NCBI GenBank assembly: GCA_008015505.1
Contig: SSFR01000008.1
Location: 124,001-188,000, forward strand
DNA length: 64,000 nt
Source: Pedobacter sp.
Lineage (GTDB): Bacteria > Bacteroidota > Bacteroidia > Sphingobacteriales > Sphingobacteriaceae
Direction: 5' to 3'
Positions 5,949-45,553 of this stretch are shown here, piece by piece (position 1 is the stretch's first letter; every line of letters starts with the position of its first letter). Position numbers and translations under genes: made by a program. Under the pieces are notes generated by a model. That model saw only the letters and a list, made by a program, of their open reading frames with translations, made no database searches and was not told the DNA's origin.

Positions 5949-5989
5949 GAGTTTATTTAAACTTTTATTCAATCCAATAGAAAAAATTA

Positions 5990-6150
5990 GAGCTTGTCTA
6001 AAGTTTATTTTATGAAGCTATTGCCGGTTATTTTTGAGCGAAATGAGGCAGATTTTGGAGCCATAGCAGGGCAATATGGTGAAAAAATCCAACGAAATTG
6101 CAGCCAAAAAGAACCAAAAGAGCAAGATAAAATAAATTTTAGACAAACTC
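5990..6150. repeat. MITE-like inverted-repeat element, copy 1 (161 bp)
   Basis: The left arm GAGCTTGTCTAAAGTTTATT starts at 5990. The right arm ends at 6150 and matches its reverse complement at 22 of 24 positions. The interior carries a second, smaller inverted repeat (AGATTTT...AAAAATC, CCATAGC...ATATGG). TTA occurs on both sides (5987-5989 and 6151-6153), as expected of a 3-bp target duplication; the right TTA is also the stop codon of the tolC-like gene on the minus strand. The interior is near-identical to copies at 8601 and 36885. No transposase is encoded. Confidence 0.88.
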
Positions 6151-7611
6151 TTAATTACAGTCGTTCGAAGCTAAACATTTACCCAGGTAAAAATCAATGG
6201 TTTTTCGGCGAAATAGTAGATCATATTCTGCTTTGATCAATTCAAATTGCGCATTGTTCATATCTGTTTGTGCTTTGTTATAGTCAATTGAATTAACAAG
6301 ACCAACATGATATCGTTTTTCAATAGCATCAAAAGCGTCTTTGGAAGCAATATAAGCCGCTTGAGTAGAAATATGTTTTTTTTCCGCCGCTCGAACATCT
6401 AGTACAGCCTGATTAATCACCTTGTTCAGATTGTTTTTGGCTAGTTGTTCAGCCACTTTGGCATGCTCGTAATTAACTTTGGCGCGGCTAATAGACGAGC
6501 GCGCCGAAAGCCCATTGAAAATCGGGATGGTCACTCCAATGGCAATTGATTGACCAAAATTATCTTTCATCTGGCTGAAGAAAGGTGTTTTTTCATAGAC
6601 GGGTCGAACGTTAGGTGTGTAGACCGGTTGATTAGTACTTCCATCATAACCAATGATAGAAGAAGTTCCATCGAATACTTGACCTACCAGACGCTGGTCA
6701 TTGTTAGAGAATCGGGAAGTTAGTTGTCCCTGTAATACAATACGGGGATATAAATTTCCTCGGGCCACCTCAACTCCTTTACCTGAAGCTATACGTCGGT
6801 ACTCAGTAGATTTAATTTCAGGAAAATGGACCAAGGCAGTGCGGTAAACATCTAAAGCTGAATAATTACTGGAGTCTGTCTTTATTTCTTCAATTATTGG
6901 TTTTTCTACGTTAAAAGAAATAGCAGGATCACGTTCCAAGAGCTGTGCTAGATTGAGAAAGGATAAATCTAGCTGATTCTGCGCATTGGTCACATTTAGT
7001 TCCGCGGCGGCTAACTGTGCTTTAGCTTGCGATAAATCAGCCAATGTCTTACTACCTGCATCAAAAAGTTGCTGTTCCCGATCCATTTTTTGATGACTAA
7101 CTTCCAACTGTTGTTTGGCCGCTAAAAGAATGTCCTTATTGGTCAAGACTTGTAAGTAGGTATTAATGACATTTAGGGTTAAATCGTTTTTGATTTTTTT
7201 TGTGTTGCTTTTGTCAGCTTCCAATAAATATTTGTTTTGTGAAATTTGATGCAGCTTTTGGAAACCCTGAAATAACGTAGCCTCGGATAGTAAGCCAATA
7301 TTACCCGAACTAAGCTGTGTGTTTACAAACTGGTTAGTCGTTGGATCGATACTACGGCCATAACTTGAGCCCACACTATTATTACTGTTCAGGTTAGGGT
7401 ATAAGGCAAGTTTAGATTGATTTAAAGTTTCATCCGCAAGGGCTTCCGTTAATTGGGCCTGTTTGATCTGTAAATTGTTTTTTAGTGTGATTTCAACAGC
7501 TTGCTTTAAGGTAATTTTTTCCTGTGCGGAGCTTATCGTAGTAAAAAACAACAGGAAAATAAAAGGAAGAGTAGTTCTTTTATTAGTGAATATATGGCGA
7601 GTAAATATCAT
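6151..7611 (-). CDS. TolC-family outer membrane protein
   Basis: 486 residues. N-terminal signal peptide (FIFLLFFTTISSAQ), then two repeats of the outer membrane efflux protein fold: ITLKQAVEITLKNNLQIKQ at the start of the first half and long alternating heptad helices such as LDVYRTALVHFPEIKS in the second. It would form the outer membrane channel of a tripartite exporter or type I system. No membrane-fusion or pump gene is next to it, so its partner is elsewhere. It is divergent from yicC. Its stop codon is exactly at the edge of inverted-repeat copy 1. Confidence 0.9.
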   Translation of the reverse strand: MIFTRHIFTNKRTTLPFIFLLFFTTISSAQEKITLKQAVEITLKNNLQIKQAQLTEALADETLNQSKLALYPNLNSNNSVGSSYGRSIDPTTNQFVNTQLSSGNIGLLSEATLFQGFQKLHQISQNKYLLEADKSNTKKIKNDLTLNVINTYLQVLTNKDILLAAKQQLEVSHQKMDREQQLFDAGSKTLADLSQAKAQLAAAELNVTNAQNQLDLSFLNLAQLLERDPAISFNVEKPIIEEIKTDSSNYSALDVYRTALVHFPEIKSTEYRRIASGKGVEVARGNLYPRIVLQGQLTSRFSNNDQRLVGQVFDGTSSIIGYDGSTNQPVYTPNVRPVYEKTPFFSQMKDNFGQSIAIGVTIPIFNGLSARSSISRAKVNYEHAKVAEQLAKNNLNKVINQAVLDVRAAEKKHISTQAAYIASKDAFDAIEKRYHVGLVNSIDYNKAQTDMNNAQFELIKAEYDLLFRRKTIDFYLGKCLASNDCN

Positions 7612-8600: not shown

Positions 8601-8754
8601 GAGCCTATTAAATTTTATTTTATGAAATTATTATAGGTCATTTTGAGCGAAATGAGGCAGATTGTGGAGTCATAGCGTGGCTCCTATGGCGAAAGAATCT
8701 AACGAAATTGCAGCTAAAAAACCGATAAGAATAAAATAAATTTTAAACAGGCTC
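8601..8754. repeat. MITE-like inverted-repeat element, copy 2 (154 bp)
   Basis: The arms begin GAGCCT on the left and end AGGCTC on the right, pairing over ~23 bases with one gap; the interior is strongly similar to copies 1 and 3. TAA flanks both ends (8598-8600, 8755-8757). It is 42 bases after the yicC stop and 10 bases before the gmk start. The GAGCCT variant is present in both arms, unlike GAGCTT in the other copies. Confidence 0.85.
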
Positions 8755-20602: not shown

Positions 20603-20626
20603 GAGCTTGTCTAAAGTTTATTTTAT
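20603..20626. repeat. Solitary arm of the GAGC inverted-repeat family
   Basis: GAGCTTGTCTAAAGTTTATT, with TTAT after it, is identical to the left arm of copy 1, but no interior or right arm follows. It ends 3 bases from the stop codon of the chalcone-isomerase-like gene. Confidence 0.7.
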
Positions 20627-20629
20627 GAT

Positions 20630-35824: not shown

Positions 35825-36886
35825 ATGAAAGTTCAAGCTAGTGCAGTTTCACTTACAAACAACCTATTCTTCATCCTCATTTGCTTATTTCTCATCTCTT
35901 GTGCCAAGCCCCAAATTGATACCCTAAAAACATTGCCCGAATGGGGCCCTTCTCGATGGATGGGAACCCTACCGTCTAATCTATCCCTTGCTCAAATTTC
36001 TATACCTGGCACACATAAATCCAATGCGCTATATGGATGTAATTTTGATATTCGAATACCCATAGTAGGCGTTCAAACAGGCGACCTGTGGAAATGTCAG
36101 GATAAACCTATAAAAGAACAATTAAAAATGGGAATCCGTTATTTAGATATATGTTGTCGTCGCTACGGAAACGCATTTATCATACACCATAGTATCATCT
36201 ATCAACATCTCAATTTTCAAGATGTTTTAGACGCGTGCATCTCTTTTCTACAAGAAAATCCATCAGAGACCATTATTCTGAAAATACAAGAGGAACAAGT
36301 AGCATTTGAACCCCAAGCTGGCACCGACTCTTTCATTAACATATTTAATACATATACTAATCAGTACCCAGATTTATTCTATAAACCTACAAATCGTAAT
36401 GCCCGAGTCATCCCCACACTAGGAGAGGCAAGAGGCAAAATTATCTTCTTAAAAAGATTTGAAGGCTCCCTCCAATCTCCACTAGGAATGGATATAGCCA
36501 TCACCGAAAACACCACCTCAACTTATAATATTTCTGCAACAGAAAAATTGAGGGTACAAGATTTTTATAAGCCCAAGAATGCTACAGAAAAAATCACCTA
36601 CTTTTTACCCCTATTAGAAGAGTCTTTCGGACAAAACACACAAGTTTCTACCCTATACCTTAATCATACCAGTGCTTGCCTACTACATACCATTTCAGTT
36701 ATTGACCAAACAATCCCAGCTCCGTACTACATCAGTATTGCCAAAGACATGGGCAACTTCCTATTAAACACACTCAAAAATAAAGGAAAAGGAAACACGG
36801 GAATTGTAGCCATGGATTTCGTGAGTCCTTCTCATTGTGATGCCATCATTAAAACAAATGCTCTTATTGGTCGAAAGAAGCAATGA
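35825..36886 (+). CDS. Lipoprotein with PI-specific phospholipase C X domain
   Basis: 353 residues. Lipobox LISC with Cys26. PI-PLC X fold: ISIPGTHKS (general-base His64), QLKMGIRYLDI (Arg105), IIHHS (second catalytic His region 121-122), then FLQENPSETIILKIQEE. Most relatives have GTHDS; here Lys65 replaces the Asp, so catalysis may be altered. It could cleave phosphoinositides or GPI anchors, or, as for several bacterial members, another phospho-lipid. Its stop codon TGA is completed by the first two bases of repeat copy 3. It has no operon partner. Confidence 0.85.
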   Translation: MKVQASAVSLTNNLFFILICLFLISCAKPQIDTLKTLPEWGPSRWMGTLPSNLSLAQISIPGTHKSNALYGCNFDIRIPIVGVQTGDLWKCQDKPIKEQLKMGIRYLDICCRRYGNAFIIHHSIIYQHLNFQDVLDACISFLQENPSETIILKIQEEQVAFEPQAGTDSFINIFNTYTNQYPDLFYKPTNRNARVIPTLGEARGKIIFLKRFEGSLQSPLGMDIAITENTTSTYNISATEKLRVQDFYKPKNATEKITYFLPLLEESFGQNTQVSTLYLNHTSACLLHTISVIDQTIPAPYYISIAKDMGNFLLNTLKNKGKGNTGIVAMDFVSPSHCDAIIKTNALIGRKKQ

Positions 36887-37046
36887 GCTTGTTTAGAGTT
36901 TATTTTATAAAATTATTGCAGGTTATTTTGAGCAAAATGAGGCAGATTTTGGAGCCATAGCGGGGCTTCTATGGTGAAAAAATCTAACGAAATTGCAGCC
37001 AAAAGAAACCAAAAGAATAAAATCAAATAAACTCTAAACAAGCTCA
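36885..37046. repeat. MITE-like inverted-repeat element, copy 3 (162 bp), in the PI-PLC stop codon
   Basis: The outer 21 bases of both arms (GAGCTTGTTTAGAGTTTATT plus T) are perfect reverse complements. The interior is near-identical to copies 1 and 2. AAT flanks both ends (36882-36884, 37047-37049). Removing the element and one AAT restores AAG CAA TAA, so the ancestral gene ended in TAA; insertion changed it to TGA using the element's first two bases. Confidence 0.92.
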
Positions 37047-38538: not shown

Positions 38539-38804
38539 ATGAGAAGATTAGAAGATATCTTAGGGCTTGAGGCTTTGAACACTCGGGAATTAATTTAAAA
38601 GGCGGTGAGCCCGTTATAGCTATAGCAATAGTCCTGGGTATCTATACAGTAGTTGGTGGAACTCCAGGAATTGTTTTTGCACTATTTTGTGCTAAAAAAA
38701 TTCCAGTCACCATCGCGGTTATTATCGTCCCAGATAGTTTGGGTAATTTTTGGCTCTCAAAATACTCCAATTGGAATCAAACGGGGTTGCAACCAAAAGA
38801 ATAA
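38539..38804 (+). pseudogene. Frameshifted double-glycine leader peptide gene
   Basis: ATG 38539 opens MRRLEDILGLEALNTRELI and stops at once. One base added near 38592 would continue as RELNLKGG-E, giving a leader of the GG type found in Bacteroidota natural-product precursors (…LN.KEL…KGG). The second frame then runs 67 codons from the GG: a hydrophobic segment EPVIAIAIVLGIYTVVGG, TPGIVFALFCAKKIPV, a VTIAVIIVPD strand and a tail ending LQPKE-stop. The tail falls in a decayed repeat arm. It is either a pseudogene, a sequencing error or a programmed frameshift. No exporter or modification gene is nearby. Confidence 0.5.
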
Positions 38805-38829
38805 AATTAGATAAACTTTAAACAAACCC
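38786..38829. repeat. Decayed right end of the inverted-repeat family
   Basis: TTGCAACCAAAAGAATAAAA and the following ATAAACTTTAAACAAACCC match the right end of copy 3. The left arm is absent. It lies 8 bases before the ugd ATG. Confidence 0.65.
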
Positions 38830-42276: not shown

Positions 42277-42426
42277 GAACTTGTTTAAATTTTTAATGTG
42301 AAGTAATTAAATAAAGAGGGTTCACATTAAAACACCTACCAATCAAATAACTTACTAGCCTCTTCAACCACCTTCATTAAATTAAAACAAACCAACAAGA
42401 GCCACTTAAAAACTTTAAACAAGCTT
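42277..42426. repeat. Inverted-repeat element, copy 4 (150 bp), same ends, different interior
   Basis: The left end GAACTTGTTTAAATTTTTAA pairs with the reverse complement of the right end over ~20 positions with few mismatches. TAT flanks both ends (42274-42276, 42427-42429). The interior does not match copies 1-3; it contains ATGTGAA...TTCACAT and a Pro/Thr-like A/C-rich stretch. It begins 4 bases after galE. Confidence 0.7.
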
Positions 42427-45504: not shown

Positions 45505-45553
45505 GAGCTGGTCTAAAATTTATAATGAATTAAAATAAACTTTAGACCAGCTC
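45505..45553. repeat. 49-bp minimal inverted-repeat element (arms only)
   Basis: GAGCTGGTCTAAAATTTATA is joined almost directly to its reverse complement (…TAAACTTTAGACCAGCTC), with no interior. The outer 13 bases pair perfectly and most of the next 6 do. AAA flanks both sides (45502-45504, 45554-45556). It begins 14 bases downstream of the aconitase stop and could serve as its terminator. Confidence 0.8.

Follow-up and report, generated by a model that had tools for sequence, protein, structure and literature searches.

Repeated elements in the window

The window, i.e. the whole stretch of 64,000 nucleotides analysed, comes from a Sphingobacteriaceae genome (G000; 2.34 Mb in 26 contigs) and carries on its forward strand five short elements, each bordered by a matching triplet, as the preliminary description had reported. 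The first, at 5990..6150, is full-length and has ends of type A (the end types are given below) and a TTA duplication at 5987-5989 and 6151-6153. The second, at 8601..8754, is 154 bp long with type C ends and a TAA duplication, and the third, again full-length, lies at 36885..37045 and has type B ends and an AAT duplication, to which base 37046, earlier counted as the last of the element, in fact belongs. Only these three structured MITEs have an interior in common, and at 79-86% identity it is not the near-identical sequence that it was first taken to be. The element at 45505..45553 (49 bp, AAA duplication) consists of two arms without an interior, and that at 42277..42426 (TAT duplication) encloses an unrelated one; the ends of the latter are of the same kind, as had been stated, except that the outermost bases are imperfect (GAAC../..GCTT). 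In alignment, its positions 4-42 and 121-149 correspond to the two ends of a 948-bp IS described below, and 42277..42426 therefore probably arose from this IS by internal deletion. A right-end fragment is found at 38791..38827 (+). In the 5990 copy, the apical core, comprising TTTTTGAGCGAAATGAGGC, an inner hairpin, and AACGAAATTGCAGCCAAAAA, occupies approximately 6029..6112 (+), and by sequence comparison it appears to be the part of the element that is conserved across the phylum.

The insertion at 36885 provides the last two bases of the TGA stop codon (36884-36886) of the open reading frame 35825-36886, so that the original end of this gene may have been replaced.

A solo left arm of 26 bp, whose partner arm is absent, lies at 20603..20628 (+). 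Such solo ends number 30 among the 100 end matches listed in G000 (other examples are L032:1015(-), L034:934(+), L037:983(-), L045:964(-), L073:617(+), and L076:570(-)), and each is one arm of ca. 18-27 bp beginning exactly at GAGC and followed by unrelated sequence. Several precede apparent gene starts by 40-100 bp, some resemble hairpins cut down to 30-40 bp, and in L036 a remnant of ca. 31 bp has TTA on either side. Slippage between an arm and the right duplication was considered as their source and rejected (9 of 30 against 7.3 expected, p 0.26).

A genome-wide family with 3-bp target duplications

A search of the whole genome with the element, as earlier proposed, scored 40 places for the 161-bp unit at the DNA level and found the end motif 254 times, against 26 for a reversed control pattern, while a covariance model built from 31 copies gave 80 distinct members, truncated and expanded ones included. 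Exact 3-bp flanking duplications accompany 42 of the 80 members, compared with 3.8 expected (1000 permutations, maximum 10), and a 4-bp flank match occurs in none; the duplication therefore measures 3 bp and does not simply result from A+T-richness, which bears out the original claim of transposition. The members are mostly 146-218 bp in size, with arms of ca. 24 bp, and have no coding capacity: no reading frame stays open in most copies, and 41 of 58 full-length copies have stops in all six. Being short, dispersed, and non-coding, with terminal inverted repeats and a constant duplication, the elements are MITEs. As to an autonomous partner, ISs with matching ends exist, their transposase genes are broken, and no intact copy was seen.

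As many as 77 of the 80 members lie outside simple ORF-based gene models, many of them close to stop codons. This location would also suit a functional structured element kept near gene ends by selection, be it an RNA processing or termination signal or a protein-binding hairpin, whose spread as a MITE would be old and incidental. Recent multiplication in G000, where copies of type A are up to 98.8% identical, and the 3-bp duplications at unrelated sites argue against this alternative, which on all the evidence given here and below we regard as unlikely. Long hairpins in many intergenic copies are likewise reminiscent of REP/BIME-like repeats, which a Y1 tyrosine (RAYT/IS200-type) transposase mobilises via single-stranded hairpins. 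Here, however, terminal inverted repeats are combined with 3-bp duplications, and IS5-family elements carry matching ends; Y1 transposition is not known to duplicate its target. A REP/BIME-like origin is thus extremely improbable.

A subfamily of 209-218 bp (L038, L039, L043, L049, L204, L205, L208, and L209, all in G000) has an extra segment of ca. 50 bp (..TTTAATTTATTTTTCAAAGGTATTCAACTGTTCGCTTCGCTCGG..) within the inner hairpin. A MITE at C8:168812-168972, inside a broken IS5-type gene, was considered as proof of an empty site and rejected, as the joined flanks gave no recognisable frame on both sides.

End types and candidate partner ISs

Four end types are distinguished among the MITEs of G000: A (GAGCTTGTCTAAAG), B (GAGCTTGTTTAAAG or ..TTTAGAG), C (GAGCCTGTTTAAAT), and D (GAGCCGGTCTAAAG and variants), the left and right ends being of the same type in 69 of the 80 members. 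Copies of type A differ least from one another (mean identity 92.9%, maximum 98.8%), the averages for the other types being 85-89%, and judged by similarity type A would be the youngest.

The link to the IS5 family made in the preliminary description is upheld by a 948-bp IS in the same genome (C1:154310-155257, i.e. L031:1011-1958), with ends GAGCTTGTCTAAAGTTTT and flanks AGA/AGA, whose first 17 nucleotides are identical to the type A ends. A transposase gene between matching ends, which it had proposed to look for, is thus present; it is of IS5 type and split by frameshifts, the broken protein scoring 50.3 bits with PF13340 (above the cut-off) and 71.6 bits with NF033580 (below it). The other copies of this IS in G000 are fragments, and this genome yielded no intact transposase with matching ends; nor did the 40 contig-end stretches examined (nine short contigs at one end) contain any end or transposase sequence of a hidden IS. 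With all the related transposase copies found here broken, the elements in G000 are probably dormant at present. A second IS, of 858 bp, is found in another genome, G355 (C22:79572-80429). Its type C ends are the same as those of the G355 MITEs, its IS5 transposase has one internal stop (NF033580 179.6 bits, cut-off 110), and its flanks, TTA/TAA, are not an exact repeat. One end-matched complete IS, and no more, was seen per end type. The transposases of the two ISs barely align with each other and therefore belong to different groups.

The structured interior of ca. 160 bp, read directly, shares just its terminal bases with the 948-bp and 858-bp ISs. The elements had been taken for non-autonomous derivatives of a DDE transposon; their non-autonomous nature and an IS5-type partner are supported, but only 42277..42426 aligns in the manner of a derivative, and with this exception the sequences do not support an origin from either IS by simple deletion.

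Distribution and target preference

In its own genus the element is patchy (2 of 20 genomes), the sole other carrier by DNA search being G019, with a 163-bp copy flanked by TAA. Its wider spread was traced with covariance models and by a pattern scan of species contigs. In a sample of the Sphingobacteriaceae, 20 of 151 genomes gave matches, spread over 7 of 25 genera, and the pattern scan found the core in Pedobacter, Parapedobacter, and Pelobium, in MAGs of the Chitinophagaceae, one of which has many copies, in Niabella hibiscisoli, and in Flavobacterium pectinovorum, where only a degraded element was seen. The model scan of a phylum sample added, among others, G355 and G258, and gave at least 6 of 395 genomes, a lower bound, as seven candidates were scored per genome. 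The ca. 160-bp hairpin MITE thus occurs in several families, being found in other genera of the Sphingobacteriaceae, in Chitinophagaceae, and in Flavobacterium. Plasmid and phage collections gave no match to the element.

In G355, MITEs with type C-like ends occupy at least 12 places, and the seven of these that were read as sequence are flanked by TAA or TTA. In JAGKWS01 (G152, the Chitinophagaceae MAG C8_D7_6) there are 46 forward and 46 reverse end matches against none for the control; the element ends here are GAGCCTGTTTAAGATTT / GAGCCGGTTTAAGATTT (records L109-L147), and this assembly represents a second, independent amplification of the ca. 160-bp element. No PF13340 transposase was found in it. 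Most carriers have few copies and no matching transposase, which speaks for the functional element introduced above, while the patchy occurrence within the genus speaks against it. A PF13340-type IS was rejected as the general partner in other genera, being present in just 1 of 7 other carriers. The G355-type transposase is absent from 15 other carriers. ISs from other genera that share a group with a candidate partner showed no matching triplets. The transposases searched for as movers were the PF13340 type and one other, so a different DDE family could be the mover.

Two elements of 173-174 bp in G428 (L168, L174) have GAGCCTGTTTAAATTTTATTT ends, TAA-type flanks, and an unrelated interior; the same ends therefore carry other interiors, too.

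Outside G000, the flanking triplets match in 46 of 67 copies, and in 43 of these they are TAA or TTA. Where nearly every flank is TAA or TTA, many matches will arise by chance (21 by permutation), yet the observed 46 exceed the permutation maximum of 31. For types A and B in G000, only 4 of 28 duplications are TAA/TTA (Fisher p 2.7e-12 against 43 of 46, related copies in this comparison being not all independent). Target preference, as read from these flanks, thus seems to have shifted along with end type, from TAA/TTA to mixed A/T-rich triplets, and a change of transposase would be the simplest explanation.

Hairpin structure and covariation

The 36885 copy folds over its whole length into an imperfect hairpin (z -8.2). 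In an alignment of 39 sequences, 95.5% of cells pair and 25 of 43 pairs are changed on both sides, with a covariation score of 0.297 compared with 0.134 for shuffled and at most 0.093 for slid alignments; 17 of the 39 come from the pattern scan, in which part of helices 4 and 5 is prescribed, and conservation in these two helices is thus partly imposed. Pairing is preserved across genera via compensatory change, and the set of sequences found by the model has the same core. In G258 (L173, L181), the length and the apical core are retained and the arms and ends replaced, the retention of the core being biased upward because the covariance model used includes it.

That the ca. 160-bp length, the pairing, and the unpaired bases of the core are conserved from one family of the phylum to another speaks for the functional element under selection. 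On the other side, no Rfam release 15 covariance model matched any of seven loci, up to an E-value of 1, and part of the covariation of the inner stems has another possible source. These stems are bimodal in G000: in ten copies they are perfect over 13-18 bp (C25:24693, C19:5735, C16:31943, C11:26486, C8:163822, C25:33378, C9:45038, C8:189068, C8:186425, and C1:199754), and in the others over 3-8 bp. In the perfected hairpins the template was in some cases the left arm and in others the right, which suggests template-switch correction of quasi-palindromes, a process described elsewhere (PMC8794818, PMC7202029). As the ten stems fit template switching, the covariation may be partly mutational, and its reading as a sign of RNA function is weakened. 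Template switching is no explanation for the unpaired conserved bases around the apical hairpin.

Proposed mechanism

We are confident, short of certainty, that the elements are non-coding, mostly ca. 160-bp MITEs, folded over nearly their full length into imperfect hairpins and moved in trans by IS5-family transposases with a 3-bp cut. The transposases would bind and cut ends of ca. 14-18 bp in trans, and insertion would proceed through a 3-bp staggered cut. The passage from TAA/TTA targets of the type C-like elements in other genera to the mixed A/T-rich targets of types A and B in G000 would reflect recruitment by a transposase of a different IS5 group; the arms would be rewritten together, and the apical core (GAGGC..hairpin..AACGAA) kept, being either recognised or structurally needed.

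More tentatively, and with the balance somewhat against it, this widely shared hairpin may combine a pair of modules: ends that can be exchanged to fit a transposase, and a conserved apical hairpin, with a sequence-specific internal loop, that has a function of its own. If so, the ends would suit whichever IS5-type transposase is present, the target changing from TAA/TTA to an A/T-rich triplet of almost any kind, and the apical part would be bound by a protein or be active in transcripts or in transposition. Such a construction would explain the survival of the element across genera that have no resident transposase.

Comparison with known systems

Most descriptions of bacterial MITEs present them as having arisen by deletion from a local IS within one species. 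An element whose size, structure, and core are constant across families while its ends and targets change offers a natural experiment on transposase switching. Its apparent compensatory covariation, which probably includes homogenisation of the arms by template switching, calls for caution in inferring RNA function, and once annotated the element accounts for dozens of spacers between genes, and for the ends of some genes, in carrier genomes. The core string GAGCGAAACGAGGC was not found in the literature, subscription papers and ISfinder lying outside the scope of the search, which makes this limited evidence of novelty.

The closest relatives described in the phylum are the MITEs of P. gingivalis and of Cardinium. 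The former, MITE464/PgRS and BrickBuilt (PMC4596501), are likewise intergenic and have IS5-family terminal repeats, GAGACTGTTGCA / GAGACCTTTGCA, close to GAGCCTGTTTAAA of the present elements. They differ in having internal tandem repeats and in being confined, as far as described, to Porphyromonas. The Cardinium MITE (PMC9769881), also multiplied in one lineage of the Bacteroidota, derives from an intact IS982 that probably maintains it and is unique to one strain, whereas the G000 element is IS5-type and widely shared, with no intact partner found. The Correia/NEMIS elements of Neisseria (PMC2229807) are high-copy MITEs of 107/155 bp with 24-bp terminal repeats and hairpin transcripts, and differ in their TA termini, their other ends, and their host. 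The best analogue for breadth is ERIC (PMC2229807, PMC10969869), a 127-bp intergenic hairpin MITE found in many genera in 30 to 711 copies, for which effects on mRNA have been described. It is set apart by size, termini, and taxon (PMC2229807), having TA termini and a 7-bp terminal repeat, in contrast to the long arms, 3-bp duplication, and IS5-type ends of the G000 elements.
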